Below are positions 2,382 through 43,878 of a DNA stretch of 43,995 bases, one piece after another. This DNA is from a virus: positions 1 to 43,995 of the IMG/VR virus record IMGVR_UViG_3300025071_000016; one strand, given 5' to 3'. Within the stretch, counting starts at the first letter, position 1, and each line of letters opens with the position of its first letter. The notes under the pieces are model-generated. The model was not told the origin of the DNA. It ran no database searches and saw only the letters and a program-made list of their open reading frames with translations. The position numbers were made by a program, and so were the translations under genes.

Positions 2382-2541
2382 AAAGGGGCAAGGATTTTTT
2401 GTCCCTTGTTTAGATACGCAAAAGGTTTATGAGGAAGGATTAAAAGCTGCGGTGTCTCAAAAAGTATTAAAAGCTAGGGCTAGTATAGGAATTAAAAATC
2501 AATTGCTAGGGGTTCTTTTTTACTTTGTTGATAATAATTAG
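2350..2541 (+). CDS. Conserved small phage protein, 63 aa
   Basis: A short protein starting inside the 3' end of the primase-helicase in another frame, so probably translationally coupled to it. The pattern W-K-K-L-K-K-G-Q-G-F-F-V-P-C-L-D near the N-terminus, then EEGLKAA, then GVLFYF at the C-terminus, resembles a small conserved family found beside phage replication genes. No catalytic motif is visible and the function is unknown. Its last 50 bp overlap tail-to-tail with the end of the giant minus-strand gene, so the two convergent modules meet without any spacer. Confidence 0.7.
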   Translation: MKIQYPWKKLKKGQGFFVPCLDTQKVYEEGLKAAVSQKVLKARASIGIKNQLLGVLFYFVDNN

Positions 2542-8500: not shown

Positions 8501-11083
8501 AGGTGTCACTGCCTTTGCGCCAACAATATCAACAGGAAAGTCGCCTCTAAGTTTTTTACCTAGTTCTGCATCTCGTGACACACTAGTTAAAGTTTTCTCT
8601 AATCCTGCATCAAGAGCTGGTTGATCTCTTTTAAGATTAGTAAGTTCTTCTTGGTATGATTTTTTTAATTCTTCTGTAAGTTTTTTGCCTGAAGGAGCAA
8701 TATTTGATTCAAGTATTTTTTCAACTTCTGTAATTCTTGCGGCATCTGAACGTACGGGTGCAGAAGTTTGAACTGTTGCTAACAACTCATTAAGTATTCT
8801 AAGTTGTACATTTTCTTTAATTGCTGTATTACCTTTTTCTTTAAAAAGTTTACCTGTTTTAAAGTTAATTAAAGATTCTGCTCCGGGGAGTTCTCTTCGT
8901 TGTTGATTAAATTTTAATGTTTTAATTCTTTGGCGAATAGCTTCTTTAACATTTTTATCATAAGCATCTATAAAGACAGATTGTCTAGGTGTTGTCTTTG
9001 CAGTTACTGGTTGTGTTTTCCCTCGTATTTTTTCAAGATCTTTAAGCCCAAGAGCTTTAGCTACTTCGTTAGAAAGTTGCCCTTTTTTAAGATCTCTATT
9101 AAAATTTTCAAATGCAGTTGTAGTAGAAGTTTCTGCAGTATCTGCAATAGCTTCCATAGCTTTACGTCTATTGCCTCTTAATACACTTATCTCATCTGAA
9201 AGTTTAAATATTGCTTCTTTATCTCTTCCTGTTTCTTGAAATAACTTACGTTGGTTTTCTCTTTTCTCAATTTCACGATTCATCGTGTTAATAGTTTTAT
9301 TCGCAGATGCTAATCTTTTTGTATAATCAAACGGTAATCGTTTTGGCTCTGCTTTAGGAAAAAGTATATCGTAATCAAACTCGCCACTAGTTTGCTCATC
9401 AAAGTAATTTTTTAAAACAGATTCAGTTTCTGCATCTTTTATTTTTTTATCTTTTATTTTTTGTGCGGTGCTAAAATCTTTTAAAAACTTTGTAGATAAT
9501 TTATTACGAAGATCACGAGTATCTTTAATTTGTTTTTCAGCTTCTACAGCTCTAAGTTTTTGAGTGCTATCTTTAAGCTCTTCTAATTTTTTTAATTGTT
9601 TATTGTAATCAGGACGCCCAAGATCGTCATATGTATCTCGTAGACTTGAATCAATAGCTTCAGTATTTATTCCTGCACTTTCTAAATCTTCTACAAAGAA
9701 AGCAACTTCTTTTCTTAAACCTTCTCTAGTAGCATCCTCTTCTACAACAGGCGCTGCAGGTTCTTCAGCCATACGCTCTGCTACAGTAGGTTCTTTAACT
9801 GTAGGTTCTTCAACCGTAGGTTCTTTAACTGTAGGTTCTTTAACCGTAGGTTCTTCAACAGGTTTTGTTTGTTGCTCAAGAACTTCTTCAAAGCTAGGCA
9901 AACCTCCCATAGCTCTAAGTGTTTCTGTATCACTATTAATTTGTTGTTCTAAAATATCAATTCGATTAGTTGCTTCAGATCGTATATCTTTATCTAAAGT
10001 TTTATCTTTTAATAACTGTTTTAATTTTTTAAGTTGTTCTTTGTTAGCATTTAGACTTTGTTTATATCTAGCTATTTCTGACGTTTCAGTGTCAGGTTGT
10101 GCTTCATCTGACCTTTGAACTAAGGCTTCGTCAACAACAGGAGTTTGTGAAGGAGTATCAACAGCAGGATCTCGTCCAGCTTCAAAGTAACGTCCTGCTC
10201 CACCAAGCGGTGTACCCACCAGTGCAGCTCCATACGCAGCACGTCCATACTCTTGAACAGCATCAGGAGTTGACAGCGGCAACCCTGCTTGATAACGCTC
10301 AATCATTTGTTGTGCAACTTCTGTTCCTGATTCAACAGCTAAACCTCTTGCTCCACCTTTTGCTAATGAAGATATAATTCCTTCATCAATAGCTTTACTT
10401 CCTCCCTCGGCCAATAACCGTTCAACCTTTGGCCCCAACAAACTTCCAATAACTCCCCTTCCCAAAACAGTAAACGTAGCTGCTAACTCTAAACCTGCAG
10501 CCGGTGCTGCTGCCAAGAGAGCTTTGCCTCTATCAACATCTACATCTCTTCCTGCTGCTACATCTTCTTCTGCTTGACGCTCAAGGAAAGACGAATAAAG
10601 TTGTGGAAGTGCAAAAGACAATCCTCCAGCTATAGCTCCGGGCGCTCCAAATGTTCTACCTCCTACAAAACTGGCTCCCACTGTACCTGCAATATTAGGA
10701 AACTGTTCTGCAATAGCTGTTGGCACTTGACTAACAACTTCTTTAGCTGCAGGTAAAAAACCCTCTTGTTTATATGCGTCAATAACAGCTTCTAAATTAG
10801 AACCGGGAGCAAATTGTTTGGCAATTTCTTCTTGTCTTTTTAATCCTGCTAAAGCTGCTGCATCTTTGTCATCTGTTGCAGATTCAAACGCTGTTTGAAA
10901 TCCTGATTTAAGAACTTCTAATCCACGTCTAGCAGCAGGGCCAACACCTTCTCGTGAATCTTCTTCAGATTGAAATGCTGCTTTAAATGCTGGGCTTGTA
11001 CGAATAGCTTCTTTTATTTCCTCATCCGTCATGGTGTCAGGAAATCTAACTCGCCCAACATTTGGTATTTGAACTACAGGCAT
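2492..11083 (-). CDS. Giant polyvalent internal virion protein (HExxH peptidase motif, LPD38-like)
   Basis: A 2863-aa protein, the last and largest gene of the late module, probably packaged and ejected with DNA. The N-terminus (MPVVQIPNVGRVRFPD, then MTDEEIKEAI) is typical of large phage polyvalent proteins. Residues about 90-310 are Gly/Ala-rich. Five PTVKE-type pentapeptides lie at about 408-433. Residues about 340-1740 are Lys/Glu-rich, likely coiled coil, and contain two similar copies of a roughly 40-residue segment (about 780 and 1445). TLAHELIGHYSVE places an HExxH zinc-peptidase motif at 1848-1852. About residues 2340-2610 (SPDYAVRQIYRD and following, LIMMAAMTLSY) resemble LPD38. No transglycosylase motif was recognised. 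Peptidase activity and virion location are inferred. ATG start, 1 bp after the upstream gene. Confidence 0.85.
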   Translation of the reverse strand: MPVVQIPNVGRVRFPDTMTDEEIKEAIRTSPAFKAAFQSEEDSREGVGPAARRGLEVLKSGFQTAFESATDDKDAAALAGLKRQEEIAKQFAPGSNLEAVIDAYKQEGFLPAAKEVVSQVPTAIAEQFPNIAGTVGASFVGGRTFGAPGAIAGGLSFALPQLYSSFLERQAEEDVAAGRDVDVDRGKALLAAAPAAGLELAATFTVLGRGVIGSLLGPKVERLLAEGGSKAIDEGIISSLAKGGARGLAVESGTEVAQQMIERYQAGLPLSTPDAVQEYGRAAYGAALVGTPLGGAGRYFEAGRDPAVDTPSQTPVVDEALVQRSDEAQPDTETSEIARYKQSLNANKEQLKKLKQLLKDKTLDKDIRSEATNRIDILEQQINSDTETLRAMGGLPSFEEVLEQQTKPVEEPTVKEPTVKEPTVEEPTVKEPTVAERMAEEPAAPVVEEDATREGLRKEVAFFVEDLESAGINTEAIDSSLRDTYDDLGRPDYNKQLKKLEELKDSTQKLRAVEAEKQIKDTRDLRNKLSTKFLKDFSTAQKIKDKKIKDAETESVLKNYFDEQTSGEFDYDILFPKAEPKRLPFDYTKRLASANKTINTMNREIEKRENQRKLFQETGRDKEAIFKLSDEISVLRGNRRKAMEAIADTAETSTTTAFENFNRDLKKGQLSNEVAKALGLKDLEKIRGKTQPVTAKTTPRQSVFIDAYDKNVKEAIRQRIKTLKFNQQRRELPGAESLINFKTGKLFKEKGNTAIKENVQLRILNELLATVQTSAPVRSDAARITEVEKILESNIAPSGKKLTEELKKSYQEELTNLKRDQPALDAGLEKTLTSVSRDAELGKKLRGDFPVDIVGAKAVTPQGIERERSAGDLSFTQFNELLNDLRTTTYLDSPNENRRVGASFTREGLIKKINTNRENFLNSLVDEVALRRKRDNIKLLTNNETTEVRNKVNEILDEIYNRQLASKEKVLVTLQPAQTRGTKLIAEAKTVYKDVRPLEQRPFGNPKQALEVLTESINQLKEEAATSRNVRQVFGLIGQTPKALQELQKKEDVKPVTKRRPSSDVPEGQLEFASFKQPEARNVKLGRLQKELKKVVDDRTDVARQILEIKPLTEFVELDKGFDQTFLVEALNKKTQPFIPTSPIGRVQAKLKAAEEQVNKPDIPQARINKLNKDIEKYTKQIKTFVEAELTKLDKKKFNIIKREVAIENQINNLSDVTKEEKEDAVREAKKLAVEQLKDRENKKNAETKKLLAERKEAKKVAAEKAEAAKVKAAPEELRKSLPGRKITPVTRQARTDIADELDPSGSSKIKQEVVQLSDDLAYRAALQRDKKGKSDFRKQADKDKAEKIKALKPELAKVEEEITNIEKELEAPKITKKLKANLEDKLDNKKTERGILKNNFQELTKSPVARFTIAEIKAVDNLSGMPDLLEATPELRKEKQEADTRINAIEKILESNVDTAGKKLTNKLKTQYKKELADIKKTQKALAFVSEDVGKGIDLFGNPEQSTVTPTTLSTTAISKLFVNPANVDKKIQAVEEKLISKKTELKQTKGEKNKQKRLDLNEEIESLENDLTDLAILSEAKDVQPKFNSLKKILKNRYAQANNLRSKLNLGAITRPEIEETIKEVIRLTKFTKDKTVGKNFKIVSENYAKKNIDLAFDLQTYLNTLDRIKFLNNNLQKAKRDELSNLGGILLDKPELPNVKNLRKRTVKPDEFRNPDFSINQQKTFTDKQAFDLLGTVGSFIEGKTFNRDGFDYRISESAASGELDVNAAVERLKTTKEKATAADINFNYYKTFDALPDNVKKDIQAKGLESYKNQIKGGVLPDGSVFIVVDNHSSMIDLEKTLAHELIGHYSVESVLGQNGMKKLLKQVENQYGNVYTLADKLNLQGLEHEAYALMGKNGSTDNAKMLMLKEIIAFTAEKKVDASFLQTAKRWLQELVGAIRAAFKKIGLLDANKMSTSDIFYLLKQAEANFNAGKPMAKVDARGDVSFRITPAKYNNDVPTELQGAAERIIDLGTPAAQRIKAENLGLAGRVKYFDRFGATEALIKKGAEKNIIDSVKAMDVMYFNRMSDQRNSFIAEVATSGPLSLKKVKRPDNKEERIIESTPGASLKQVAEALRGANIGNDKATEAQFTLYLLAKRAKRVGKKVLDLEGRITDAELAAAEQFGDSNKSFQNARKIYNEYNKGLIDFLISTGAMGKNIGEKLKLTNDYVPFYRSDGDSVMLNIQGEKPFRVGDLTSQPYLKELIGGQQKVFTVFDSALRNTNLLTDMALKNLATRNTAFVFKDLGVATISKGTGKADRSTIRFKINGEDFSAVVNTENKEMLFGDIPTELVVEGLHGIQASIPTAIRLLGMPANWLRKFVTRSPDYAVRQIYRDSMAAVMTTGANFTPVVDTLRELTRANRDGAFGSLQKRGVIGGQVLSGASDDMQKILLQITSGKSNWASSLAKLDSLAMKGDGATRVSMYNSFLQQGLSEREATFGALEAMNFSRRGLSPTMMHLNTLITFFNANIQGIDVIYRAFKGDMPASQRLKVKRKLYSRLIMMAAMTLSYTQMMEDEDLYKDATPAQRLSNWFIPIGGTALRVPIPFEVGFIGKALPEGVYNMAFSDRDASKTLKELYDMFLRSMPLVNPGAGLVPVPDLPTGVKPFVELATNYSFFTQAPIESPRMKTLIPSERYSSSTPEALKQAGQLTEVLGVSPIQIETLFRGFTGGLGISLLKLLNPVLEKDIIKPDGSIANAPFIGGLFQPDSAGGIVNGAYQTAIETDKIVKTYKKLIDEGRDKEAFKFYKDNEVDYLLGKAGAVFRKSAGEIQKEIRRVREDPELPKEQKERDLKDLKKLLKDYANYYQQSKKEPLAIDF
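9786..9860 (-). repeat. Five tandem 15-bp repeats coding PTVKE-like linker
   Basis: Five consecutive 15-bp units of the form gtaggttcttTaacT (plus strand) encode E-P-T-V-K/E pentapeptides within the giant virion protein. Units differ only at two or three positions. The proline/charge pattern suggests an extended hinge between the N-terminal Gly/Ala-rich part and the coiled-coil region; copy number may vary by slippage. Confidence 0.9.
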
Positions 11084-11084
11084 A

Positions 11085-13421
11085 TTAGTTCCTTAACAGA
11101 TTGTCAGTTTTTGGGTCATAACTAAAGTTTGCTCCTGATGAACCGCCACTACCGCTCATACCTAACGTACGTTGAATAAACTGCATAGCAATTTCTTCGT
11201 CTACCTGTTCAGGCTTTACCCCCATAATCCTAGCTACATGCATTTTTTGATCCGGTTTTATTAGAATATCTTTCACTTGTCTTTGTATATTTAGCCTGTT
11301 ACTCGCACTTAAACCGCTAAGACCACTACCAAGACCAAGACCAAGACCACCAAAAGTTGATCTTTCTTTTGCCGCCTTTACACTAAACTTGCCTGTTATG
11401 ATTGTTTTCTGTAATGCTAATTTAGCTAATTTTCTTTCTTGTTGAGCTTTGTCAAAACGATCTTGTGCTTTTTCTTTCATGTTTATTGCAGCTATGCCCG
11501 TTTGTCTATTGGATGTTTGGAAGGCTTTCTCAAGACTCAGTGCTTCTTTGTTATAATCTCTGTCCATCTTTTGATAATACTTAATATCTTCAGCAAGTCC
11601 TTTAACTGCAGGGGCTGCGCCCTTACCAATATTAACGAAAGCATTAGGCGATTCTCCAGCCATTATACCTAACCCCATTTCAAACAAACGTAAAGCACGT
11701 CCTTCTTTTCCTTCGGCTTTAGTTTGCGCCTGCATTTCTTTTAATTTTGTTTTTGCCTCTGCGAAATAATTTTTATCATACCCAGCCTTTTCCATAGCAA
11801 GATTAACAGTATCTACATAATCACCTACCTCTTTTGGTTTCAGATCTTCAAAATCATTCTTAAACCCTAGTTCAGCTAGTTGATTGTTTAAACTGTCTAA
11901 TGAAGGCATAGATAAATCAGATTGTGGAGGGGCATCTGCAACAAGCCCACGGCCATTTGCAGGAGGGCCACCTACAGGAGATTGATTTACAGAAAGAATT
12001 TCTTCTTTTATAGAAGAAGGATATACAGGAGTTGCTTGTGGTTTTATTTCAGATATAGCTGATTGTAGAGCTTCTAATCCTCCAAAATTCCCAGTCTCAT
12101 CACGTAATAAAGAATTTATTTGATCTGGTTTCATACCGTACGATCTAGCTTCTTGTATTGCGTTATACACAGGTTGTGGAAGTTTAGAAAGAGTTTCAAA
12201 ATTTCTTAAGTTGCCAGCAGGTGTAACTTTTGGAGCAAGTCCTTTATCCATTATATTTCCAACTTGCGAAAAAACTTCTTTAGCCGCTGGCATAAACCCT
12301 TGCTCTTCGTATATATCTGGAACAGCCCCAAAACTAAAAGTAGGAGTTGTTATTTCAGGAATAGTAACTGGAGTTGTTGCAGAAATTCCCCCTTGAGGGT
12401 TTAATACATTTTGTTGACGATATAAGTCTGGAAAATTTTTCATAGCTTGCATACGTTTTACAATTTCATCTTCTCCTGCTCCTGCATCCCCTGCAGCAAG
12501 TAATGCGGCTGCTCCTTTAGGAACTTTTCCGTAGGTACTAAGAGGGTTTACAAGCCCAAGACTTTTTCCAATAACACCTTTTGGAAGAAACCTTTTTCCA
12601 GACTCAAAATATGCTTTGTTAGCTGCTTTGTTAGCTGCTTTTGCTTTGAGTTTGTCTGCTTTGATTTTTGCTTGTTGCTCCGCTTTATTTAACACAAGTC
12701 TATCTACTCTTCGATCACGAACTACTTGACGATCTACTTCTCCTCCCTGTCCTACACTTTTTGGCTGAAATTTAGTTGGGTCACCTTTTACAGTTGGCCC
12801 CGGCATTTTTAGATTTCTATCAAAAGGACTTGCTCCTATACCGCCTATGCGTTGATTCGTAGCAGCTTGCACAATTTTTTGAAAGGCTTGAGTTTGTGGA
12901 AGAGGGCGCCCAGCTTTTTTAAATTTTTCTAAAACTTCAATGTAATTAAATTTAGTATCTCCTCGTGCTGCGGCTGCACGAGCTTGTTCAAGTATTCTTT
13001 TTAAATTGTCTTCTGGTAAATTTACATATCCTGTATTTTGAAACGCAACTATACCTCCTCTGTTACCTGCAGGAGGTTTGCCCCCAATAGTAGCCATTTG
13101 ATTTTGTGCTGCTAAGTTTCTAACAGCAGGCTGTGACATATCTAAACCTAACCCATCTTGAGGAGCAGGCGCAGTTAAAGACTGCATTACACTAGGAGGC
13201 TTAGGGCCAGCGCCTTTCATTTTCTCTGCCGTGCTTTTTCTAGCTTGCAACTCTCCTGCTAACAGTAAATACTTTTTACTTCCTACATCTTGTGGACGCT
13301 TAAGAGTTATTTCTCGTAACATATTTTTTAAAAACGGTATTCCTTTTGGCCCTTTTGGTACAGCTTTTTTAATTAACGAGTCGAGCTTTGCGATGTTAGG
13401 ATCAGATATTGTGAGTGCCAT
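11085..13421 (-). CDS. Large internal virion protein candidate, 778 aa
   Basis: Unrecognised by family. It lies between the 421-aa structural protein and the giant polyvalent protein, where podoviruses usually encode internal (ejected) virion proteins. Visible features are a basic N-terminus, a GGKPPAGNRGGIVAFQ motif near residue 115-130 of a type common in marine phage virion proteins, a Lys/Ala-rich stretch around 230-275, an EEQGFMPAAKEVFSQV motif near residue 375-390 that also occurs in the giant protein, and an acidic/basic helical C-terminal third. No enzymatic motif, membrane segment or signal peptide was seen. Spacing to the next gene is 1 bp, so co-translation is likely. Virion role is inferred from position and style. 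Confidence 0.7.
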   Translation of the reverse strand: MALTISDPNIAKLDSLIKKAVPKGPKGIPFLKNMLREITLKRPQDVGSKKYLLLAGELQARKSTAEKMKGAGPKPPSVMQSLTAPAPQDGLGLDMSQPAVRNLAAQNQMATIGGKPPAGNRGGIVAFQNTGYVNLPEDNLKRILEQARAAAARGDTKFNYIEVLEKFKKAGRPLPQTQAFQKIVQAATNQRIGGIGASPFDRNLKMPGPTVKGDPTKFQPKSVGQGGEVDRQVVRDRRVDRLVLNKAEQQAKIKADKLKAKAANKAANKAYFESGKRFLPKGVIGKSLGLVNPLSTYGKVPKGAAALLAAGDAGAGEDEIVKRMQAMKNFPDLYRQQNVLNPQGGISATTPVTIPEITTPTFSFGAVPDIYEEQGFMPAAKEVFSQVGNIMDKGLAPKVTPAGNLRNFETLSKLPQPVYNAIQEARSYGMKPDQINSLLRDETGNFGGLEALQSAISEIKPQATPVYPSSIKEEILSVNQSPVGGPPANGRGLVADAPPQSDLSMPSLDSLNNQLAELGFKNDFEDLKPKEVGDYVDTVNLAMEKAGYDKNYFAEAKTKLKEMQAQTKAEGKEGRALRLFEMGLGIMAGESPNAFVNIGKGAAPAVKGLAEDIKYYQKMDRDYNKEALSLEKAFQTSNRQTGIAAINMKEKAQDRFDKAQQERKLAKLALQKTIITGKFSVKAAKERSTFGGLGLGLGSGLSGLSASNRLNIQRQVKDILIKPDQKMHVARIMGVKPEQVDEEIAMQFIQRTLGMSGSGGSSGANFSYDPKTDNLLRN

Positions 13422-13423
13422 AA

Positions 13424-14689
13424 TTACATTCCTGACATTAGTTTTTGAAGAGCTAAACCTGATAGCCCCAATCCACCAATTTGCGAAATAGCAGACGGCG
13501 GCTGTTGATAAATAGCTCGTCCCCCGGATTGTGCAAGATTAGATGATCCACGAAGAAGATCAGACATAAATCCTAGACGTGTATAAGGATCAGCTTGTTG
13601 TGTTTGGAAATCTCCATACGCCATATCTAACCTAGCTTGTCGCTCTGCTTGAGCTTGTGCGGCCATTTGATTTTGAAACTGTATGTTTGCTAATTGTGTT
13701 TGACCTTGACGACCAGCTAAATCTCCTAATACTGCGGCTGATTGTGTAGCTGCTTGTGTTCCTTTTAATCCTATCTCAGACCCAAACTGTTCATTAGCTT
13801 GATTAGCTAAAGCTGCTTGAAGAGCTTGATTTGCTCCTAACCCTTGCGTTTGTAAGGATGCTGCAAGATTTTGTACTCTAGCTTGTTGCTCATTATCTAA
13901 ATTTGCAAGTGATGTTTTTAAACCTATGTCAGCACCGAGAGCCTGTACTCCTAATTTAGCAGCACGATCTCTTTCAAACTGTGCTTGTGCTGATTCATAA
14001 GCAGATTGTAGTCCTTGTGCTTGAATGTCTCCAAGCTGACCACCTAATGCAGCTTCTCGTTCTCCTTGAAGTAAAGCCTGCCTTGCTCCTCCATAAGTTC
14101 CTTGTCTGGCAGCGGCTAGGTTTGTAGAAAGTTGAGTTCGTTTAGCATCATCTATTGCAGCTAACTTTTGACGTTCTACAACTTCTTGCATAAACGGAGA
14201 ACCGTACTTAACTACTTCTTCACTACTAAATTCCGGCGCTGCAAGAGTAGGATTGTAAACAGTCTGTGCGCCTTGCATACCGTATTGTGTAAGTTGTGGC
14301 CCACTAACCGCAGTTGAAGTTGGATCATATTGCGAACTTGTCAACGCCTGTAGTCCAGCAGTTTGAGCAAGACTTGCTCCCGCATCAAAGCCTCCGGGCA
14401 TTTGTAAATTTTGTGCATTTAAACGAGCTTCTTGTTGTGCAACATTAGGCCCAGCAATTCGTTCTCCTCCATATACTTGATACGGAGATTTTTCTACATC
14501 AGAAAGTGCTGCTGCTTTTCCTAGTATATCGGCCATGTACGGTTCAGCGTACTCCGGTATAGTAGTTTGACTCATACTAGTAGGCTGCCCTCCACTAGGC
14601 CCACCCTCTAAAGTCATAGGCCGATTGCCCGGCCCTGCTCGTTTTACAAATGCCCTTTCAGGTAACATTTCATCCCATGCGTTTCTCAT
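13424..14689 (-). CDS. Ala/Gln-rich virion protein, 421 aa
   Basis: Conserved-looking phage structural protein of unknown function. The N-terminal part has TIPEYAEPYMADILGKAAAL, followed by PYQVYGGERIAGPN. The middle has SPFMQEVVERQKLAAIDDA and GTYGGARQALLQGEREAALGG. The C-terminal half is a long Ala/Gln-rich, probably alpha-helical region with repeated QALGADIG/LANLDNEQ-like blocks. Such helical Gln-rich proteins typically build internal core or ejection structures. The start codon overlaps the stop of the upstream GNAT-fold gene (ATGA-type, 4 bp), supporting co-translation. No enzyme motif is apparent. Confidence 0.7.
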   Translation of the reverse strand: MRNAWDEMLPERAFVKRAGPGNRPMTLEGGPSGGQPTSMSQTTIPEYAEPYMADILGKAAALSDVEKSPYQVYGGERIAGPNVAQQEARLNAQNLQMPGGFDAGASLAQTAGLQALTSSQYDPTSTAVSGPQLTQYGMQGAQTVYNPTLAAPEFSSEEVVKYGSPFMQEVVERQKLAAIDDAKRTQLSTNLAAARQGTYGGARQALLQGEREAALGGQLGDIQAQGLQSAYESAQAQFERDRAAKLGVQALGADIGLKTSLANLDNEQQARVQNLAASLQTQGLGANQALQAALANQANEQFGSEIGLKGTQAATQSAAVLGDLAGRQGQTQLANIQFQNQMAAQAQAERQARLDMAYGDFQTQQADPYTRLGFMSDLLRGSSNLAQSGGRAIYQQPPSAISQIGGLGLSGLALQKLMSGM

Positions 14690-36406: not shown

Positions 36407-37915
36407 TTAATAGTATGCGGCTCTTCTACTTGATTTAAAAAACTGAGGAGAGTCTGGCTCATCTGAAGGTAAAGTTATAAACCCCCCGTTTCTAAATCTA
36501 AGTAACGCTTGTGACATTGTATCTACATAGTCGTCATGTTCTCCAACTGGAAAACTAACAACCTCTTCAATTACATCTCTTGCCCATCTAGTATCCGGCG
36601 CCCATACAATACCAGAAGCAAACAAATCAGAAACTGCATTTACCCTAGATATCTTATCGTTACCACGACTTGGACTAAACTCATCTACTGGTATCCCCAT
36701 TCTTCTAAACTCTTGTATTAGCGGTGCGCCTGCTGCTTTTTTCTCTACGAGAAACGAATCCGGTCGCCACTCTTTGTAATGCTTTAATGCAATTTCTTTT
36801 AATTCAGGAAACTCCATTCTATCTTTAAATGCGTCTAGTAATATAATACTAGGACGGTTGTGTTCTTCCTCATCATACCAAACTCCCCATGTAGTACAAG
36901 CAGAATAGTCGGCTGTTGTTTTTGCTTCGTGTGCTGTGTCCCAACTCTGGATTACAAAATCACAGGAAGGTGGATCATCCTTCTCCCAAATCTGCCAGCT
37001 CGTTCTTTTAATAAACGCAGAAGAGTCTGCTGTTGGCTGCTGCATATATTGTGCATTCCAAAATCTTGGATCAATAGCAGCTTTCTTTTGTTCTAATTGT
37101 TTAACAGGCCATTGCTCAGGCCAAAGACTTTTACCTGATGGCAGTATCGCAGGTAACTCAACTACTTCCCACGGATCAGCTTCTGGGTTACGCAGTTGAA
37201 AGTTCATTAACTTACCTGTCAAATCTATTAGACTCCACCTAGTCATAATAACTAGAATGGCTCCCCCCGGCATCAATCGTTGTAGCGGGCCTGTTTGAAA
37301 CCATGACCACGCATTCTCAAATGTAGATCGACTGTTTGTTTGTATGTCTTGCTCTGAGTGCGGATCATCAATAACAAATAAATCCGCACCACGACCAGCT
37401 AACGCGCCGCCCACACCTACTGCGTAATACTGTCCTCCACTAGACGTTGACCATTTGCCTGCAGCTTTTTGATCTTCTGCTATCTGCGTATCAGGAAACA
37501 CTTCTTTATATTCATCAGACACAATTAAGTTTCTTACCCGTCTACCAAAGTCTTCTGATAGTCCTGCAGTGTGGGTCGCCATAATTACTTTCTTAGTAGG
37601 ATACTTTCCAAGAAACCATGCGGGAAACAAATAAGACGAGAACTCTGACTTACCCATACGTGGGGCAATATTAATAATGACTCTTTTCTTTTTACCGTCT
37701 GCTACATCTTTAAATATCTTTGCTAGTGTTCTATGATGCCCCCCTTCTTTGAATCCGGGGTACGCATAGTCAGCAAAACCTAGCATAGATTTTTTTGCTT
37801 TTTGTAGCTTATATCTTCTTTCCTGTTCTTCAAGTTCTTCTAAAAACTCTAGCTTTTGAGAAGAAGATAATGTAGCTAATAATTTATTTACGTCGTTTTC
37901 GCTTAGGTTTAGCAT
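36407..37915 (-). CDS. terL: Terminase large subunit
   Basis: A 502-aa packaging motor. The ATPase domain has Walker A in NIAPRMGKSE (K89), MATHTAGLSEDFGRRVRN, and Walker B LFVIDDPHSE at residues 179-188. IMTRWSLIDLTGKL follows. The nuclease domain starts at about residue 318, with VIQSWDTAHEAKTTADYSAC supplying the first acidic residue (D326), and contains the terminal DDYVDTMSQALLRF motif. The family is close to the Terminase_6/Terminase_6C type. It overlaps the small subunit gene by 32 bp. Confidence 0.9.
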   Translation of the reverse strand: MLNLSENDVNKLLATLSSSQKLEFLEELEEQERRYKLQKAKKSMLGFADYAYPGFKEGGHHRTLAKIFKDVADGKKKRVIINIAPRMGKSEFSSYLFPAWFLGKYPTKKVIMATHTAGLSEDFGRRVRNLIVSDEYKEVFPDTQIAEDQKAAGKWSTSSGGQYYAVGVGGALAGRGADLFVIDDPHSEQDIQTNSRSTFENAWSWFQTGPLQRLMPGGAILVIMTRWSLIDLTGKLMNFQLRNPEADPWEVVELPAILPSGKSLWPEQWPVKQLEQKKAAIDPRFWNAQYMQQPTADSSAFIKRTSWQIWEKDDPPSCDFVIQSWDTAHEAKTTADYSACTTWGVWYDEEEHNRPSIILLDAFKDRMEFPELKEIALKHYKEWRPDSFLVEKKAAGAPLIQEFRRMGIPVDEFSPSRGNDKISRVNAVSDLFASGIVWAPDTRWARDVIEEVVSFPVGEHDDYVDTMSQALLRFRNGGFITLPSDEPDSPQFFKSSRRAAYY

Positions 37916-38752: not shown

Positions 38753-38775
38753 GGGGTGGTGGGGGTGGGGTGGGG
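38753..38775 (+). promoter_or_regulatory. G-quadruplex motif
   Basis: Four G-tracts of 4, 5, 4 and 4 separated by loops TGGT, T and T on the plus strand. This satisfies the canonical G4 pattern with very short loops, usually a stable fold. It is an exceptional G-run in this AT-rich sequence and lies in the divergent control region between two promoter candidates. An 8-bp inverted repeat (CGGGGGCT at 38660-38667 and AGCCCCCG at 38791-38798) encloses it. Confidence 0.7.
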
Positions 38776-38825: not shown

Positions 38826-38834
38826 TGGTATACT
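38826..38834 (+). promoter_or_regulatory. Extended -10 promoter nearest the first early gene
   Basis: TGG-TATACT matches extended -10 with one mismatch in the hexamer. It overlaps an inverted repeat TATACC-CCTTAT-GGTATA (38815-38832), a possible operator. Transcription would begin near 38841, placing the leader hairpin at 38871 in the 5' UTR. Confidence 0.45.
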
Positions 38835-38870: not shown

Positions 38871-38895
38871 GCCGTGTAACAACTTGTTACACGGC
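38871..38895 (+). promoter_or_regulatory. Leader hairpin, 12-bp perfect stem
   Basis: Arms GCCGTGTAACAA and TTGTTACACGGC are perfectly complementary around a single C, giving in RNA a stem with core TAAC-AACTT-GTTA. No U-tract follows, so it is not a terminator. It ends 13 nt before the AAGGAG of the first early gene, suggesting RNA stabilisation, processing or translational control. Confidence 0.7.
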
Positions 38896-38922
38896 TCAAT
38901 CAATTTACAAGGAGCAACAAAC

Positions 38923-39477
38923 ATGAAAAAGAAAGCAATTGCAGTATTCGTAGCAACACCAGTAGTTAAACAAAATCATGCTTTGACTACAGCTTGCATG
39001 AACGTAGAGATACACAGCGACAAAGTCGATGAAAATAGACAGATTCTCAAGGTTGCAGTCGAGAAGAGAACGTCTTATGCGAGTCAACTTGATCTTATTG
39101 CTACACATATTGCACCAGTATTATGTGAGAGAGCAACCAAGAAGAACCCAAAGAAAAAGTATTACGCCTATGTAACCAAGGAGGGCGGTATTGGATTTAC
39201 AAACAAGTTGGACGCTGATGGAAACGTAGTAGCCAATAGAGAAACCAGTAGCGAGTGCAAGTTTATAGTGATGTGGTTAAAGAGAGATTACTTGAATTAC
39301 TTTGGTTTATACGTCAACCCGAAAGTACAAAACAAAGGCACTCGCAACAAGACAGAGCGAAACCTTAACAACGTGCCATTCGGTAAGATGACACCTGCTG
39401 AGAAGATTAGATTCATAGCAGAGAAATCACAAGAGGACTTCATCAAGAAACACTTCAAGATCACTAAGATCAAGTAA
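38923..39477 (+). CDS. First early gene, unknown function, 184 aa
   Basis: A Lys/Asn-rich protein starting MKKKAIAVFVATPVVKQNHA. It contains LDLIATHIAPVLCERATKKN, KFIVMWLKRDYLNYFGLYVN and a basic C-terminus ending DFIKKHFKITKIK. No family was recognised; it could bind nucleic acid, as expected of a first-expressed early gene, but no motif proves it. The upstream in-frame ATG at 38869 lies inside the leader hairpin; ATG 38923 with AAGGAG 8 nt before is preferred. The gene has its own promoter, leader hairpin and terminator, so it is an independent transcription unit. Confidence 0.75.
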   Translation: MKKKAIAVFVATPVVKQNHALTTACMNVEIHSDKVDENRQILKVAVEKRTSYASQLDLIATHIAPVLCERATKKNPKKKYYAYVTKEGGIGFTNKLDADGNVVANRETSSECKFIVMWLKRDYLNYFGLYVNPKVQNKGTRNKTERNLNNVPFGKMTPAEKIRFIAEKSQEDFIKKHFKITKIK

Positions 39478-39503
39478 CACTTGTTGTATGTTGTGTGTTG
39501 TGT

Positions 39504-39536
39504 GTCGTAGAACGAATTGTTCTACGACTTTTTTTT
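39504..39536 (+). terminator. Rho-independent terminator after first early gene
   Basis: Perfect 10-bp stem GTCGTAGAAC / GTTCTACGAC with loop GAATT at 39504-39528, followed by eight T's. It shares the GAAC-N5-GTTC core with the hairpins downstream. The next gene's AAGGAG site starts 10 nt after the T-tract, so read-through or a second promoter must feed it. Confidence 0.9.
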
Positions 39537-39557
39537 ATCTTTTATAAGGAGTATGTT

Positions 39558-39971
39558 ATGCCAGTATTAGCAATTAAAACAAAATCAAAAAGATTTGATA
39601 GACGCACGTTGACTGGAACAACTGCCAATGTGTATGCGAATAAACCATGGGAGGATTTAGATTACTCCATGGAATGTGCGAGAGAACTTGCGGAAACTTA
39701 TTTTGATTCAGGTTGTACTAGAGAAGAGATCCCCGTTGAAGTGACAGCCATGTTTGATGAGCTAGAAGACAGGATCGAACGCCATGATGCTGTACTACAA
39801 CGTAAGGACTACGACATCTGGATCAGTAAGTTTCGTAAGCTAAAGCAGGCATGTGGTCGTCTGTTTAGTAAGCTAAAGCAATTCATGTGGGACGACATGG
39901 ATCGCATTGATCGAGGGTTTGTTTATGTGATGTTGATATATGCAGTCGTATGTTTTGTAATCTTTTATTAA
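39558..39971 (+). CDS. Early protein with C-terminal membrane helix, 137 aa
   Basis: Starts MPVLAIKTKSKRFDRRTLTG. A helical, charged middle (ECARELAETYFDSGCTREEI, LEDRIERHDAVLQRKDYDIW) leads to a basic/helix segment KLKQACGRLFSKLKQFMWDD and one membrane segment FVYVMLIYAVVCFVIFY at the very end. This tail-anchored layout could put the protein on the inner membrane. AAGGAG precedes the ATG by 6 nt; the longer frame from 39495 runs through the terminator and is unlikely. Function unknown. Confidence 0.7.
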   Translation: MPVLAIKTKSKRFDRRTLTGTTANVYANKPWEDLDYSMECARELAETYFDSGCTREEIPVEVTAMFDELEDRIERHDAVLQRKDYDIWISKFRKLKQACGRLFSKLKQFMWDDMDRIDRGFVYVMLIYAVVCFVIFY

Positions 39972-39982
39972 GGAGGAAAGTA

Positions 39983-40162
39983 ATGGCATCAAATACCAGA
40001 AGTTCTAACACAGCCGTACTCTTACGGCTCAAGCAGTACAAGATGGAAAACCCCGTAGAACAATCTTGTTCTACGGAACAGAAACCAATCCTAGAAACAA
40101 GCTGGGAAGATGTAAAGAACAGTTGTACCAGAAGAGAACCATCAACCAAAAGGAGTAAGTAA
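39983..40162 (+). CDS. Small early protein with KQYKME motif, 59 aa
   Basis: Reads MASNTRSSNTAVLLRLKQYK, then MENPVEQSCSTEQKPIL and ETSWEDVKNSCTRREPSTKR. A strong AAGGAGG precedes the ATG. Two stem-loops lie inside the coding sequence: AGCCGTA-CTCT-TACGGCT and a CCGTAGAACAA/TTGTTCTACGG stem directly after the KQYKME codons. The following gene has the same KQYKME motif followed by a hairpin. Function unknown. The stop overlaps the next start (TAATG). Confidence 0.65.
   Translation: MASNTRSSNTAVLLRLKQYKMENPVEQSCSTEQKPILETSWEDVKNSCTRREPSTKRSK
40012..40029 (+). repeat. Stem-loop AGCCGTA-CTCT-TACGGCT
   Basis: A perfect 7-bp stem with a 4-nt loop, near the start of the 59-aa gene. Possibly part of the hairpin family of this region, though its core differs. 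Confidence 0.6.
40053..40076 (+). repeat. Stem-loop CCGTAGAACAA / TTGTTCTACGG
   Basis: Perfect 11-nt complementary arms around TC; in RNA most likely a 9-bp stem with a 6-nt loop (core GAAC-AATCTT-GTTC). It lies within the 59-aa gene and has almost the same stem as the terminator at 39504 and the hairpin at 40671. Confidence 0.75.
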
Positions 40163-40293
40163 TGAAAGCAATAACCAAGCGTGACAGCAAACGTCGTGAA
40201 GTTAAGAACCCTCGCATTCGTGAGCAGAACAAAGCACGATTCTTATTCAAACAAAAGCAATACAAGATGGAAGAGGAACTATACTGTTCCTGA
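40162..40293 (+). CDS. Small basic early protein with KQYKME motif, 43 aa
   Basis: Reads MKAITKRDSKRREVKNPRIR, then EQNKARFLFKQKQYKMEEEL and ends YCS. It is strongly basic at the N-terminus, with an AAGGAG site inside the preceding gene. It shares K-Q-Y-K-M-E and a following hairpin with the 59-aa gene just upstream, implying a diverged duplication. Function unknown; the size and charge are compatible with nucleic-acid binding. The stop TGA lies directly after the hairpin AGGAAC-TATACT-GTTCCT. Confidence 0.6.
   Translation: MKAITKRDSKRREVKNPRIREQNKARFLFKQKQYKMEEELYCS
40274..40291 (+). repeat. Stem-loop AGGAAC-TATACT-GTTCCT
   Basis: A 6-bp stem with the GAAC-N6-GTTC core, at the end of the 43-aa gene in the same relative position as the hairpin in the 59-aa gene. 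A second short stem CGTAC/GTACG follows at 40295-40310. Confidence 0.6.
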
Positions 40294-40342
40294 GCGTACG
40301 CTGTGGTACGTCCTGTATCACTAAAGTGTACTTTTGTCCTGC

Positions 40343-40362
40343 GTTTAGACAACTTGTCAAAC
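40343..40362 (+). repeat. 20-bp repeat, copy 1 (GTTTAGACAACTTGTCAAAC)
   Basis: An exact inverted copy occurs at 40598-40617. The unit is itself an imperfect palindrome with core GACAA-C-TTGTC, similar to the ACAA-C-TTGT centre of the leader hairpin at 38871. The two copies bracket the iteron and AT-rich block. Confidence 0.85.
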
Positions 40363-40466
40363 AAAGTGGGCTACCTGAGATCAAGCACCAGTAATGTCTA
40401 GTCCAGAAAATGTCCACTATAATATAAGAAAATATAAATTATATATATATATATAGAGGGGTAGAC

Positions 40467-40494
40467 AAGTGGACACTTTTTTTTCTGTCCACTT
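40467..40494 (+). repeat. Hairpin AAGTGGACA / TGTCCACTT
   Basis: Two oppositely oriented iterons (40469 and 40486) form a perfect 9-bp stem with a T-rich 10-nt loop. No T-tract follows, so it is not a terminator. It borders the AT-rich block. Confidence 0.75.
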
Positions 40495-40597
40495 ACCCAA
40501 AGTTTCCCTACCCCCTTTGTTTTTTTATTTTCCCATGTTTTGGTGGACACTTTTGCCCTTAGCCCTTACTGACAGTACATCTTAACTTACCCACTTC

Positions 40598-40617
40598 GTT
40601 TGACAAGTTGTCTAAAC
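40598..40617 (-). repeat. 20-bp repeat, copy 2 (inverted)
   Basis: GTTTGACAAGTTGTCTAAAC, the exact reverse complement of the copy at 40343-40362, 255 bp away, immediately before an iteron at 40619. Confidence 0.85.
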
Positions 40618-40670
40618 CGTGGACATTTTTGGAAAAAAGTGGACACTTGCCCACTTACCCTATGATTTTC

Positions 40671-40693
40671 CCGTCGAACATCCTGTTCTACGG
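40671..40693 (+). repeat. Stem-loop CCGTCGAACA / TGTTCTACGG
   Basis: 10-bp stem with one mismatch and loop TCC, core GAAC-ATCCT-GTTC. Almost the same arms as the hairpins at 40053 and 39504. Confidence 0.7.
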
Positions 40694-40700
40694 ATTAACC

Positions 40701-40718
40701 TGCGTTACCTGTAACGCA
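40701..40718 (+). promoter_or_regulatory. Leader hairpin TGCGTTAC / GTAACGCA
   Basis: A perfect 8-bp stem around CT, ending 8 nt before the AAGGAG of the 120-aa gene, in the same position relative to the ribosome site as the leader hairpin at 38871. Confidence 0.6.
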
Positions 40719-40739
40719 ACTTTACTAAGGAGTACAAGT

Positions 40740-41102
40740 ATGAAAACAAAGCGTTTAATATCTAACAAACAACAATGGCTAGTGGATCGAGAGTTTGTTG
40801 AACTCGTTCATGAAATAGCTTTTGGAGATAGTGCTATCGACAAAGATTATTCTAACGAGGAGGTACTAGTACGACTCAATGAGTTTGCCCATGAATCAAA
40901 TAAGCTAGAAGCAATACAAGAGTGTTGCAGGTTTGAAACTGACGATCCTGATGCTGAACTTATGCGAACAGATACTAAAGGATTTGCTGACAAAATGGCA
41001 GGGCAAGGTATGTCTGACATAGAGATTGGTATTCACCTAGGTTTACTAGAGAAAGCAGACAGGATCATGGCAATAATTAAAAGAGAAGGAGAAGTAACAT
41101 GA
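40740..41102 (+). CDS. Early protein, 120 aa, unknown
   Basis: Starts MKTKRLISNKQQWLVDREFV and is acidic and helical: ELVHEIAFGDSAIDKDYSNE, VLVRLNEFAHESNKLEAIQE, then GFADKMAGQGMSDIEIGIHL and a helix GLLEKADRIMAIIKRE. The 'GMSDIEIGIHLGLLEKADRI' region looks like a helix-turn-helix-like pair, so a regulator or replication accessory protein is possible but unproven. The ORF extends 44 codons upstream into the iteron region, but AAGGAG at 40727 supports ATG 40740. ATGA overlap with the next gene. Confidence 0.7.
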   Translation: MKTKRLISNKQQWLVDREFVELVHEIAFGDSAIDKDYSNEEVLVRLNEFAHESNKLEAIQECCRFETDDPDAELMRTDTKGFADKMAGQGMSDIEIGIHLGLLEKADRIMAIIKREGEVT

Positions 41103-41269
41103 AAACAAAGCGTTTAAATACGGCTAAAGACTTAGCTACATGGATACAAAAAGAAATAGATAAAACCGCTGTAACAAACCCTGATGGTTCTGATGGTATG
41201 TCTGACGGAGAACTATTAGATTACATTTATGATACTTGTAAAAAAATAACTAAAGGAGGACAACAATGA
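41099..41269 (+). CDS. Small early protein, 56 aa
   Basis: Reads MKTKRLNTAKDLATWIQKEI, then DKTAVTNPDGSDGMSDGELL and DYIYDTCKKITKGGQQ. Its first 19 bases are identical to those of the preceding gene (both begin MKTKRL). It is linked by an ATGA overlap to that gene and to the next. Function unknown; GMSDGELL resembles the GMSDIEIG of its neighbour, so a partial duplication is possible. Confidence 0.6.
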   Translation: MKTKRLNTAKDLATWIQKEIDKTAVTNPDGSDGMSDGELLDYIYDTCKKITKGGQQ

Positions 41270-41406
41270 AACACCTTGAACGTGCATTACCCATCATACT
41301 ATTACTATTAACTTTATTAGTTACTGTAATGTTTATGTATGATATACTTAATTCTACGTTACATAACGTAGCTTGTAGAACAGACTGTTACACGAAAGGA
41401 GAATAA
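41266..41406 (+). CDS. Single-pass membrane peptide, 46 aa
   Basis: Reads MKHLERALPIILLLLTLLVT, then VMFMYDILNSTLHNVACRTD and CYTKGE. The N-terminal hydrophobic helix (about residues 8-25) makes it a small membrane protein with a short Cys-containing tail. AAAGGAGGA precedes the ATG. Inside its coding sequence are a perfect stem CTACGTTA-CA-TAACGTAG (41354-41371) and an imperfect GTAGAACA / TGTTACAC pair. Function unknown. Confidence 0.6.
   Translation: MKHLERALPIILLLLTLLVTVMFMYDILNSTLHNVACRTDCYTKGE
41354..41371 (+). repeat. Stem-loop CTACGTTA-CA-TAACGTAG
   Basis: A perfect 8-bp stem within the membrane-peptide gene, directly followed by the imperfect pair GTAGAACA-GAC-TGTTACAC (41375-41393), which combines the arm sequences of the 40053 and 38871 hairpins. 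Confidence 0.6.
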
Positions 41407-41408
41407 AG

Positions 41409-41588
41409 ATGCCTAGAGATTTTGAAATTCATAACTTATCTAATTTAACTGAAGAAGAACTGTGGGAATCTGTAGATAAATTAAAAAGTATGGTTAAAGG
41501 TGAAATAGAATGGCGAGAAGAATGTGCTGAAAAAGAAGCTGAAGAAAAACGGCAACCTTCAGAATGTTTTTTCGATTCTCTAGATTAA
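41409..41588 (+). CDS. Small acidic early protein, 59 aa
   Basis: Reads MPRDFEIHNLSNLTEEELWE, SVDKLKSMVKGEIEWREECA and EKEAEEKRQPSECFFDSLD. Predominantly helical and acidic, with a coiled-coil-like centre. A GGAG site lies 8-10 nt upstream inside the preceding gene. Not recognised; could be an inhibitor of a host protein, as many tiny acidic early proteins are, but nothing in the sequence specifies it. Confidence 0.6.
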   Translation: MPRDFEIHNLSNLTEEELWESVDKLKSMVKGEIEWREECAEKEAEEKRQPSECFFDSLD

Positions 41589-41857: not shown

Positions 41858-42149
41858 ATTTAAATACTGGCGTGACATGGTATGTGTGGGTGTAGGTACG
41901 TTTCTGGTACATCAGCAATACGTGTATTGGGAGCAACCATTGGACTACTACTTACCCGAAGGTGTAGACCCTGCGGTCTATCTCGACTACGAAGGTAAGT
42001 TAGTAGTCATGTGCATCGGAGCGTTTGTTTTGTACACATTAATTAATGTGCTAAAAGCTACATTCGGTAACGTAGCTATAAAGGTGAAAGAAAGACTATC
42101 TTTCGCAGCCAATAAATCTGTACGTAGAAGAAAAGGAGAACAACTATGA
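41847..42149 (+). CDS. Membrane protein, 100 aa
   Basis: Starts MISKFKYWRDMVCVGVGTFL. A first short hydrophobic part (MVCVGVGTFLVHQQYVYW) is followed by a polar stretch (PLDYYLPEGVDPAVYLDYEG), a second membrane helix (KLVVMCIGAFVLYTLINVLK) and a basic tail SVRRRKGEQL. The strongly basic C-terminus suggests an inside orientation. An exact 16-bp palindrome CACATTAATTAATGTG lies in the second helix at 42035-42050. ATGA overlap with the next gene. Function unknown. Confidence 0.62.
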   Translation: MISKFKYWRDMVCVGVGTFLVHQQYVYWEQPLDYYLPEGVDPAVYLDYEGKLVVMCIGAFVLYTLINVLKATFGNVAIKVKERLSFAANKSVRRRKGEQL

Positions 42150-42454
42150 GGAGATCATATCCTATCTGGATTAACGTAGAGGATCACGGCACCTACAAAA
42201 CTAGTAAAAGTTTTGGTGGTGGAAATAAACTAACACTTGAAGTATGTGTGGGTACATCAGGTACAAACTCGCATGAATTTTGTACGATAAAGATTGAGCG
42301 TGAGTCACACTCTATAGGAGCAACATTTAGGTTGTCCGTAGATGGACACGAGTACAAGGCATCCGTAGTAACAGATAAAAAAGAGTACGTTCCTGAGCGT
42401 GAAGTAGTAACCACGTTGAGTAGCGATGGAAAATTAACCAGACTAGATAAGTAA
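42146..42454 (+). CDS. Unknown beta-rich protein, 102 aa
   Basis: Reads MRRSYPIWINVEDHGTYKTS, then KSFGGGNKLTLEVCVGTSGT, CTIKIERESHSIGATFRLSV and YVPEREVVTTLSSDGKLTRL. Composition suggests a small all-beta domain. It is the second member of a coupled pair with the membrane protein (ATGA overlap). No family recognised. Confidence 0.58.
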   Translation: MRRSYPIWINVEDHGTYKTSKSFGGGNKLTLEVCVGTSGTNSHEFCTIKIERESHSIGATFRLSVDGHEYKASVVTDKKEYVPEREVVTTLSSDGKLTRLDK

Positions 42455-42466
42455 AGGAGAACAACT

Positions 42467-42670
42467 ATGAGTAACACAGTTTACATCATTGATGACAAGG
42501 GAAATGTAGAATCATTTACTGATGTCATTGCATTAATGAAGTATCTCGATTCAGAATTTACCCTCGGCTGTTTGCCTGATGACCACACATGGACAACATC
42601 AGATAAATGGAGGAGGCGGTGGAGGAAGCAAGCAAAAGAAGTTGCACAACAAAAAGGAGAACAGAAATGA
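42467..42670 (+). CDS. Small protein, 67 aa, upstream of ATPase
   Basis: Reads MSNTVYIIDDKGNVESFTDV, IALMKYLDSEFTLGCLPDD and a Trp/Arg-rich helix TSDKWRRRWRKQAKEVAQQK. AAAGGAG precedes the ATG. Its stop overlaps the start of the ATPase gene (ATGA), so they are co-translated. Function unknown; co-translation suggests a partner or adaptor of the ATPase. Confidence 0.6.
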   Translation: MSNTVYIIDDKGNVESFTDVIALMKYLDSEFTLGCLPDDHTWTTSDKWRRRWRKQAKEVAQQKGEQK

Positions 42671-43878
42671 TAAAAAAGAAAACCATGAATTACAATCAAG
42701 CTAGGGACTATGCGTACGCAAGTATTCAAACCCCTAGACTTGGGCATCAAGAGTATTCCCCAGTAGCTTTTATTTTTGTTGGGCTTATGGGTACTGCCAA
42801 GAGTGCTATGCTTAAAGAGGTAGCTGACATACTTGTAGCAAAGCACGGATACCTTAAATCTTCGTTTGATCTCTCTGTTAGTAACTCAGCTAGTGTAGCT
42901 GGCCCAACTGTTGACAAAGAATCAGGGCAGTGGGTAGAAGTACCCAACAAGCAAACCAAAGTGTCAAACACTAATTGCTATGGTGTAGAGGGATCGAAAC
43001 CTGTTATTGTTTGTCGTGAAGAGGTAGGTAAAGCTGACCTGCCTTTCATACGAGCGTTTGCCAGAGAATCATACGACAAGATGGCAGGCTCAACGCAATA
43101 CCCAGAGAACAGTGCTTTTCTGGGTACATCAAACCTAGCATCAGAAGAGTTGGGAGATGCCATACCTAAGAATCTCAGGAATCGTGTTTGTATTATTGAG
43201 GTATCGGCTGATGCTGATGTATCGCTACAGTATGCTATCTCTATGAAGTGGGAGTCTGAGTTGATTGCAACTATGAGCTTTGTCAAAGATGAATTGTTTG
43301 CATCGCCTAGCGACTACGAGCTTGGCGGTAAGTTCTCACACCTAGACATTGAGAAGAACCCTTACAAATCTACTCAAGCTCAAGCAGAACAGGAAGCTAC
43401 CATGCGATCTCTTGAGCAAGCTAACCACGAGCTAAGAACATACAAGGCACAGACACTGATTGATGATGTACCCAACCCTGTGTATCAGGACTTGCATCTG
43501 TTGGAGGTTGCACTCTATGGTTCAGTCGGTAGTCATTTTACTGAGCAGTTGGTTCAGACCATACGGCATGGTAAAGACATGGTATCTCTTGATGACATAC
43601 GTAAAGACCCAGAGACAGCGAAAGTATCTACTGGCAATTTGATTACACATCACATTATCATCATGCAGATGCTCAACAATACTCAGACACCTGATGATGC
43701 GTATGCTTTCCTGCGTTACTCTAAGCGTTTGCATGATAGTGCAACAGCTTTGTTTGTGTCATACATCAATGACAGACATGGAACATCTACTGCTTCGGCA
43801 TGGTACACAGGTGGTCCATGTGCCACATTGTGGCGTGAGTTAGTAGAGAAGTTCATTACCTGTATCCCAACTAAGTAA
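42667..43878 (+). CDS. MoxR-like AAA+ ATPase
   Basis: A 403-aa AAA+ ATPase. Walker A G39-L-M-G-T-A-K-S46 has the G-x-x-G-x-A-K-S form of the MoxR/RavA type. SNSASVAGPTVDKE follows. KPVIVCREE at 111-119 sits where Walker B should be, but has Arg-Glu-Glu instead of Asp-Glu. The sensor 1 region is SAFLGTSN (149-156) and the arginine-finger-like segment is NLRNRV (169-174). MoxR ATPases usually act with a VWA-domain partner encoded next door. The frame from 42607 would overlap the previous gene; ATG 42667 with GGAG is preferred. Confidence 0.78.
   Translation: MIKKKTMNYNQARDYAYASIQTPRLGHQEYSPVAFIFVGLMGTAKSAMLKEVADILVAKHGYLKSSFDLSVSNSASVAGPTVDKESGQWVEVPNKQTKVSNTNCYGVEGSKPVIVCREEVGKADLPFIRAFARESYDKMAGSTQYPENSAFLGTSNLASEELGDAIPKNLRNRVCIIEVSADADVSLQYAISMKWESELIATMSFVKDELFASPSDYELGGKFSHLDIEKNPYKSTQAQAEQEATMRSLEQANHELRTYKAQTLIDDVPNPVYQDLHLLEVALYGSVGSHFTEQLVQTIRHGKDMVSLDDIRKDPETAKVSTGNLITHHIIIMQMLNNTQTPDDAYAFLRYSKRLHDSATALFVSYINDRHGTSTASAWYTGGPCATLWRELVEKFITCIPTK

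Follow-up and report, generated by a model that had tools for sequence, protein, structure and literature searches.

What are the closely spaced inverted repeats at the start of the early region of an uncultured tailed phage, and what might read them? The DNA in question is a 44-kb contig (IMG/VR record IMGVR_UViG_3300025071_000016, positions 1 to 43,995; hereafter the window, that is, the whole stretch of 43,995 nt analysed), in which late genes, including that for the terminase (36407–37915), run leftward and early genes rightward from 38923. An initial annotation had listed seven stem-loops with a shared GAAC/GTTC core within 2.5 kb of this early region. That a family of stem-loops exists beyond chance is borne out by hairpin counts far above those in dinucleotide shuffles: between 38500 and 42200 there are three perfect hairpins with a stem of at least 10 bp, where 200 shuffles average 0.025 and window positions 1–38400 have none, and five with a stem of at least 8 bp, against 0.4. 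The proposed core, by contrast, is too loose to define the family. GAAC-N4–7-GTTC occurs seven times in the window versus 1.9 expected, a number reached by one of 100 shuffles, and only four of the seven are inside the early region; its excess over the shuffled control is above expectation, yet a weaker signal than the half-site consensus described here.

We define the family by two inverted half-sites, GTAGAACA/GTGTAACA, separated by a spacer of 3–4 nt. Scanning the whole window with the consensus GT(A/G/C)(G/T)AACA-N3/4-TGTTNNAC revealed five sites with zero or one half-site mismatch, all at 38874–41393, and no sixth place anywhere in the window within one mismatch. Two of these dyads (all window features described below are on the + strand) flank gene 1 (G1; 38923–39477, 184 aa), the first early gene and a candidate site-specific regulator, as a matched pair: the leader dyad at 38871–38895 (GTGTAACA-ACT-TGTTACAC, within an 11-bp perfect stem) and the dyad 3′ of the gene at 39504–39528 (GTAGAACG-AAT-TGTTCTAC, followed by T8 and hence also terminator-like). 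Both were recovered by half-site and hairpin scans, as was a third at 40053–40076 (GTAGAACA-ATCT-TGTTCTAC) within a 59-codon open reading frame (ORF), while the half-site scan gave a fourth at 40671–40693 (GTCGAACA-TCC-TGTTCTAC, one mismatch) and a heterotypic fifth at 41375–41393 (GTAGAACA-GAC-TGTTACAC), whose stem is imperfect because each half-site is of a different type. Their spacers are, in this order, 3, 3, 4, 3 and 3 nt.

These five are members of the list in the initial annotation, and the other two entries were removed. GAAC-TATACT-GTTC at 40276–40289 (listed as 40274) forms the end of a small ORF, and in the related contigs L008 and L011 the stem is disrupted; the hairpin at 40343 is part of a 104-nt inverted repeat, although its core, GACA-ACT-TGTC, is nonetheless similar to the site cores of distant relatives. 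Three further hairpins were absent from that list. One, at 40012–40029 within the same 59-codon ORF as the 40053 dyad (AGCCGTA-CTCT-TACGGCT), is of another sequence type and conserved as GCCGTACTCTTACGGC; those at 40701–40718 (TGCGTTA-CCTG-TAACGCA, identical in L008 and L011) and 41354–41371 (CTACGTT-ACAT-AACGTAG, identical in L011 and L012) belong to a second type, with CTACGTTA / TGCGTTA arms, found around the first early gene in three close relatives (L006, L008 and L011). Rfam covariance models found nothing at gathering score in the window and, as originally stated, no named family fits.

Because a search of a phage collection by terminase returned distant relatives only (Pelagibacter phage HTVC027P topping the list at 54%), the comparison was built on environmental contigs. 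Five of these (L006, L008, L010, L011, L012) have late genes 91–95% identical to those of the window and a divergent early region. They have a leader dyad and, if they extend far enough, another 3′ of gene 1; at the 40053 position a dyad is present in L008 and L011 as well. The occupants differ in sequence (AGCTACGTTA-TCGA-TAACGTAGCT, AAAGCTACGTTA-TCTA-TAACGTAGCTTT and CTGCGTTA-CCTG-TAACGCAG, the last of these lying at the 40053 position in L008), with dyads other than that of the window at the 38871 position in L006, L008, L010 and L011, and their gene 1 differs from the window's as well. Hairpins thus stand at equivalent places in close relatives for the leader, post-gene-1 and 40053 sites, but with other sequences, whereas L008 and L011 lack the 40671 hairpin and have a broken one at 40274. 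Homology with the relatives L006, L011 and L012 breaks off at 38774 and picks up again at 39529, immediately 3′ of the post-gene-1 dyad. A cassette of gene 1 with its flanking dyads appears to have been exchanged between phages, and the window, with two dyads of the second type still in place (40701, 41354), looks like a genome in transition.

Such exchange could mean that the dyads serve chiefly as joints for swapping small early-gene cassettes, either as recombination sites or as the mobile hairpins that had been suggested for them. The window's gene 1 swap stopping one base past the 39504 dyad would fit, as would the joint movement of G1 and its dyads in L247 and the varied pairings of N- and C-terminal parts among G1 members. 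However, stems are fixed while spacers are free, which is not expected of copying by recombination, positions are kept between genomes with quite different stems, and no recombinase was identified, with no tyrosine-family integrase found in 13 records. We consider this role improbable, and keep from the mobile-hairpin idea the apparent exchange of the cassette.

The dyads extend well beyond the close relatives. Among 111 non-redundant related phage contigs (terminase identity 67–100%), perfect palindromes with a stem of at least 9 bp occur at 0.41 per kb in early regions, 0.05 per kb in late regions and 0.014 per kb in shuffled early sequence, an approximately eightfold excess of early over late. 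Stems are shared within genomes, a stem 6-mer being common to 149 of 570 within-genome pairs versus 713 of 19695 between-genome pairs and to none of 37 late-region pairs, and at least two perfect hairpins (stem of at least 8 bp) with a common stem were found in 38 of the 111 relatives, many of which are short contigs. Copies of a genome's own signature have free spacers, as with TTTGGGACA (six in L033), TTTGCGACA (six in L047, one TTTGCTACA variant included), TTGTTGACA (eight in L170) and AAAGAGGAC (six in L251); in L044, a 56-kb record, every exact copy falls inside 2.1 kb. Copies remote from gene 1 lie in gene gaps in 73% of cases versus 25% at random, a median of 9 nt 3′ of a stop codon and 27 nt 5′ of the next start, figures that depend on gene calls from our own simple script. 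Further away, the annotated 65-kb cyanophage isolate MinM2 (OQ594354.1; terminase 48%) has 35 CGGTTCA-N3-TGAACCG sites with up to two mismatches in the whole record, against 0.16 expected, several of them within an 8.4-kb gene and others in the late part, which is transcribed in the opposite direction, and its first early gene shares with G1, by eye, the C-terminal motif KKADKVAALVKAFKELSPAEQARF. No repeated dyad was seen in the first 50 kb of pelagiphage HTVC027P and phage 023Pt_psg01 (TerL ~54%) or in the stretch upstream of the terminase in DSL-LC04, and matches in bacterial genomes were limited to three metagenome bins, with no isolate prophage.

Another possibility is that the dyads are conventional intrinsic terminators, or that they serve a host factor, as a LexA-like box would. 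A T-tract follows the 39504 dyad, the only one of the five that qualifies as the terminator noted originally, as it does the equivalent dyads of L006, L008 and L011, and GAAC..GTTC is reminiscent of LexA boxes. Across the relatives, however, a T-tract follows just 25 of 262 copies, upholding the view that termination alone does not suffice; moreover, arms like TTTGGGACA..TGTCCCAAA place U 5′ and A 3′, the reverse of a terminator, and signatures vary among close relatives, unlike host-protein sites. Either explanation strikes us as very improbable.

The dyads of one genome have a common sequence, which varies from relative to relative and moves with the first early gene. A matched dyad pair flanks G1 in 68 of 99 genomes, compared with 26 of 546 combinations in a null in which leader and trailer of unrelated genomes were mixed, and remote copies per genome number 2.02 for the genome's own site versus 0.065 for a foreign site (31-fold). 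When terminase identity is held fixed, genomes with similar G1 N-termini are more likely to share remote sites, an association that is weak at ≥90%. The G1 family itself is fast-evolving, its members being mostly 122–170 aa long.

Three lines of evidence speak for the sites acting as DNA rather than RNA. Within the window, half-sites combine into both homotypic and heterotypic pairs, and the L007 leader dyad has one half of each type, with two stem pairs broken. Inner-position mismatches in family copies comprise 12 G.T and 12 A.C, so that G.U is not favoured, and a signature scan at all positions gave 37 A.C versus 18 G.T; this wobble test was scored on family copies, the version on all single-mismatch hairpins being underpowered. 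Of 262 copies, 245 have the spacer length most common in their genome, in a search that permitted just ±1 base. Because half-sites vary independently, G.U is not above A.C and the spacer is nearly fixed, we prefer double-stranded DNA, which from these sequence patterns seems fairly likely. The competing view, close to the RNA-processing sites or RNA-binding repressor of the initial annotation, is that the dyads are hairpins in early mRNA, either sites of an RNA-binding regulator or processing or stability elements at cistron ends. Nearly all sites do lie in the leader or in transcribed gaps shortly 3′ of stop codons, many have perfect stems of 8–12 bp, and loop size varies in some genomes. In addition, N5 spacers are strand-biased (rich in C in the sense that is transcribed), and spacers of both 5 and 6 nt occur in a few families, two features that would suit RNA and count, together with those of G1 given below, against DNA operators. 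Nonetheless, RNA hairpins accord poorly with half-site mixing that breaks stems, with the lack of G.U preference, with stems fixed and loops free, with MinM2 sites in genes and on both transcribed sides, and with a window devoid of Rfam matches; we regard them as rather unlikely, and as fitting worse than half-sites in double-stranded DNA.

It is likely that a sequence-specific phage factor acts at the dyads, and the phage-coded binding factor suggested earlier is in this sense plausible. That the sites are palindromic double-stranded DNA operators of a phage-coded dimeric regulator controlling the early operon, with G1 the best candidate, is in our judgement an evenly balanced proposition, and that G1 is itself the factor falls a little short of that. 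Several observations on G1 are unfavourable. Genome pairs in the G1-similarity test are non-independent, and remote sites in L247 and L239 are of a type unlike those around G1. Iterative profiles connect nearly all G1 members, but the window's G1 connects to that of L007 only, so its family placement rests on position and shared motifs. No recognisable DNA-binding fold emerges from modelling: G1 has no Pfam match above cut-off and insignificant PHROG matches, the predicted structure of L047 G1 (predicted local distance difference test, pLDDT, 84; predicted template modelling score, pTM, 0.60) had no significant structural match in PDB or BFVD, and that predicted for the window's own G1 is poor (pLDDT 66).

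On the operator reading, a G1 dimer would bind the leader and post-gene dyads and so limit its own synthesis, and at the other copies it would damp or switch off the early operon. This would probably occur through a block of the elongating polymerase, which we propose because the sites lie 3′ of the promoter and in gene gaps, and which as a claim in its own right we hold to be possible but doubtful. Turnover of G1 specificity would then lead to replacement of the dyads. A possible extended −10 promoter, TGGTATACT, recognised by eye at 38826–38834, lies 5′ of the leader dyad, and relatives have TGGTAAACT at the equivalent position; a scan did not pick it up.

The closest precedent is the 17-bp dyad of Cluster O mycobacteriophages (Corndog), which has fixed 7-bp arms, a free 3-nt spacer and many copies, many of them in gene gaps, and which has been proposed as the site of dimeric regulators, with its function unknown (PMC4351075). 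The dyads here likewise combine fixed arms with a free short spacer, in several copies in the window, and MinM2 has the same 7-3-7 layout, although TGTTCGG-NNN-CCGAACA itself has no match in the window with up to two mismatches. Corndog sites, however, are genome-wide with one sequence per cluster, whereas those described here are mostly early-only, few, and change sequence by genome with the first early gene. Next come the stoperators of Cluster A, many asymmetric 13-bp repressor sites per genome in temperate phages (PMC6550527, PMC9283540), which resemble the present sites in their number per genome and in a genome-specific motif that varies with its repressor, but are asymmetric and in one orientation rather than inverted repeats. 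Searches of 13 relatives for the two families PF00589 (tyrosine integrase) and PF01381 (HTH_3 repressor) gave nothing above cut-off, so that a usual immunity system is unsupported, an absence that is no proof of lytic life. The ESAS of Cluster K have 17-bp imperfect arms and 4–13 bp spacers, are tied to the 13-bp SAS and are of unknown function (PMC3203893). They are also inverted repeats, lying 5′ of gene starts with a half-site consensus that varies by subcluster; here, unlike in ESAS, arms are 7–10 bp and many sites are 3′ of stop codons. The start-codon SAS, GGGATAGGAGCCC, has no match in the window with up to two mismatches. T4-type PeSL (promoter-early-stem-loop) cassettes carry promoters and terminators and, compared by description, share with the present locus an early promoter, a stem-loop and small early-gene exchange, but most sites here have no T-tract. 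A literature search returned nothing useful on either MinM2 or PeSL.

Other elements accompany the dyads. The 104-nt inverted repeat that contains the 40343 hairpin in its left arm (40335–40438; right arm, 40522–40625) has arms 71% complementary that enclose an AT-rich, GTGGACAC-rich stretch, is conserved in close relatives and partly kept in L040 and L044, and looks, from its sequence, like a replication origin. Near the putative origin in L072 (1893–1930, early sense, 5′ of the terminase), a long hairpin pairs CTCCTTAA with the ribosome-site-like TTAAGGAG, at a place where relatives have TTCTCCACAA/TTGTGGAGAA. Many small early genes in the window (41247–41411, 42132–42671) start in almost the same sequence context, AAAGGAGAACAACTATG, and this context is the early region's second repeated element. 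N4-type hairpin promoters were considered and rejected, the 2863-aa virion-side protein (2492–11083) having as its sole Pfam match the large polyvalent protein domain LPD38. Among unrelated contigs, TTTGNGACA-N3 in L098 and L135 was set aside as a different element, given its different, repeat-like context: there TTTGGGACA-AAA/TTT-TGTCCCAAA has GCTGGGG after it, lies in what seem to be mobile regions of bacteria and is a separate repeat, whose arms are also those of some of the phages. L100, an unrelated phage contig of 43.6 kb, carries six identical TTTGTGACATCATGTCACAAA dyads at 7710–13528, several just 5′ of ribosome-site-like sequences on the opposite strand.

The dyad set is real, widespread and under-described. 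Dyad repeats in phage gene gaps have so far been reported cluster by cluster, with no known function; here, many signatures occupy comparable positions in a large family of uncultured phages and one cyanophage isolate, together with a co-varying candidate protein, which makes the function and specificity of the dyads testable, and MinM2 could be the experimental system. They also pose the puzzle of why a regulatory code should change so fast in phages that have so far shown no sign of lysogeny. Tentatively, we suggest a phage-wide form of early-operon control in which the first early protein, fast-diversifying and belonging to a new fold family, may read genome-specific palindromes at gene boundaries, each lineage acquiring a private code through gene-and-site cassette exchange; if true, such control would amount to a counterpart of immunity specificity outside lysogeny.

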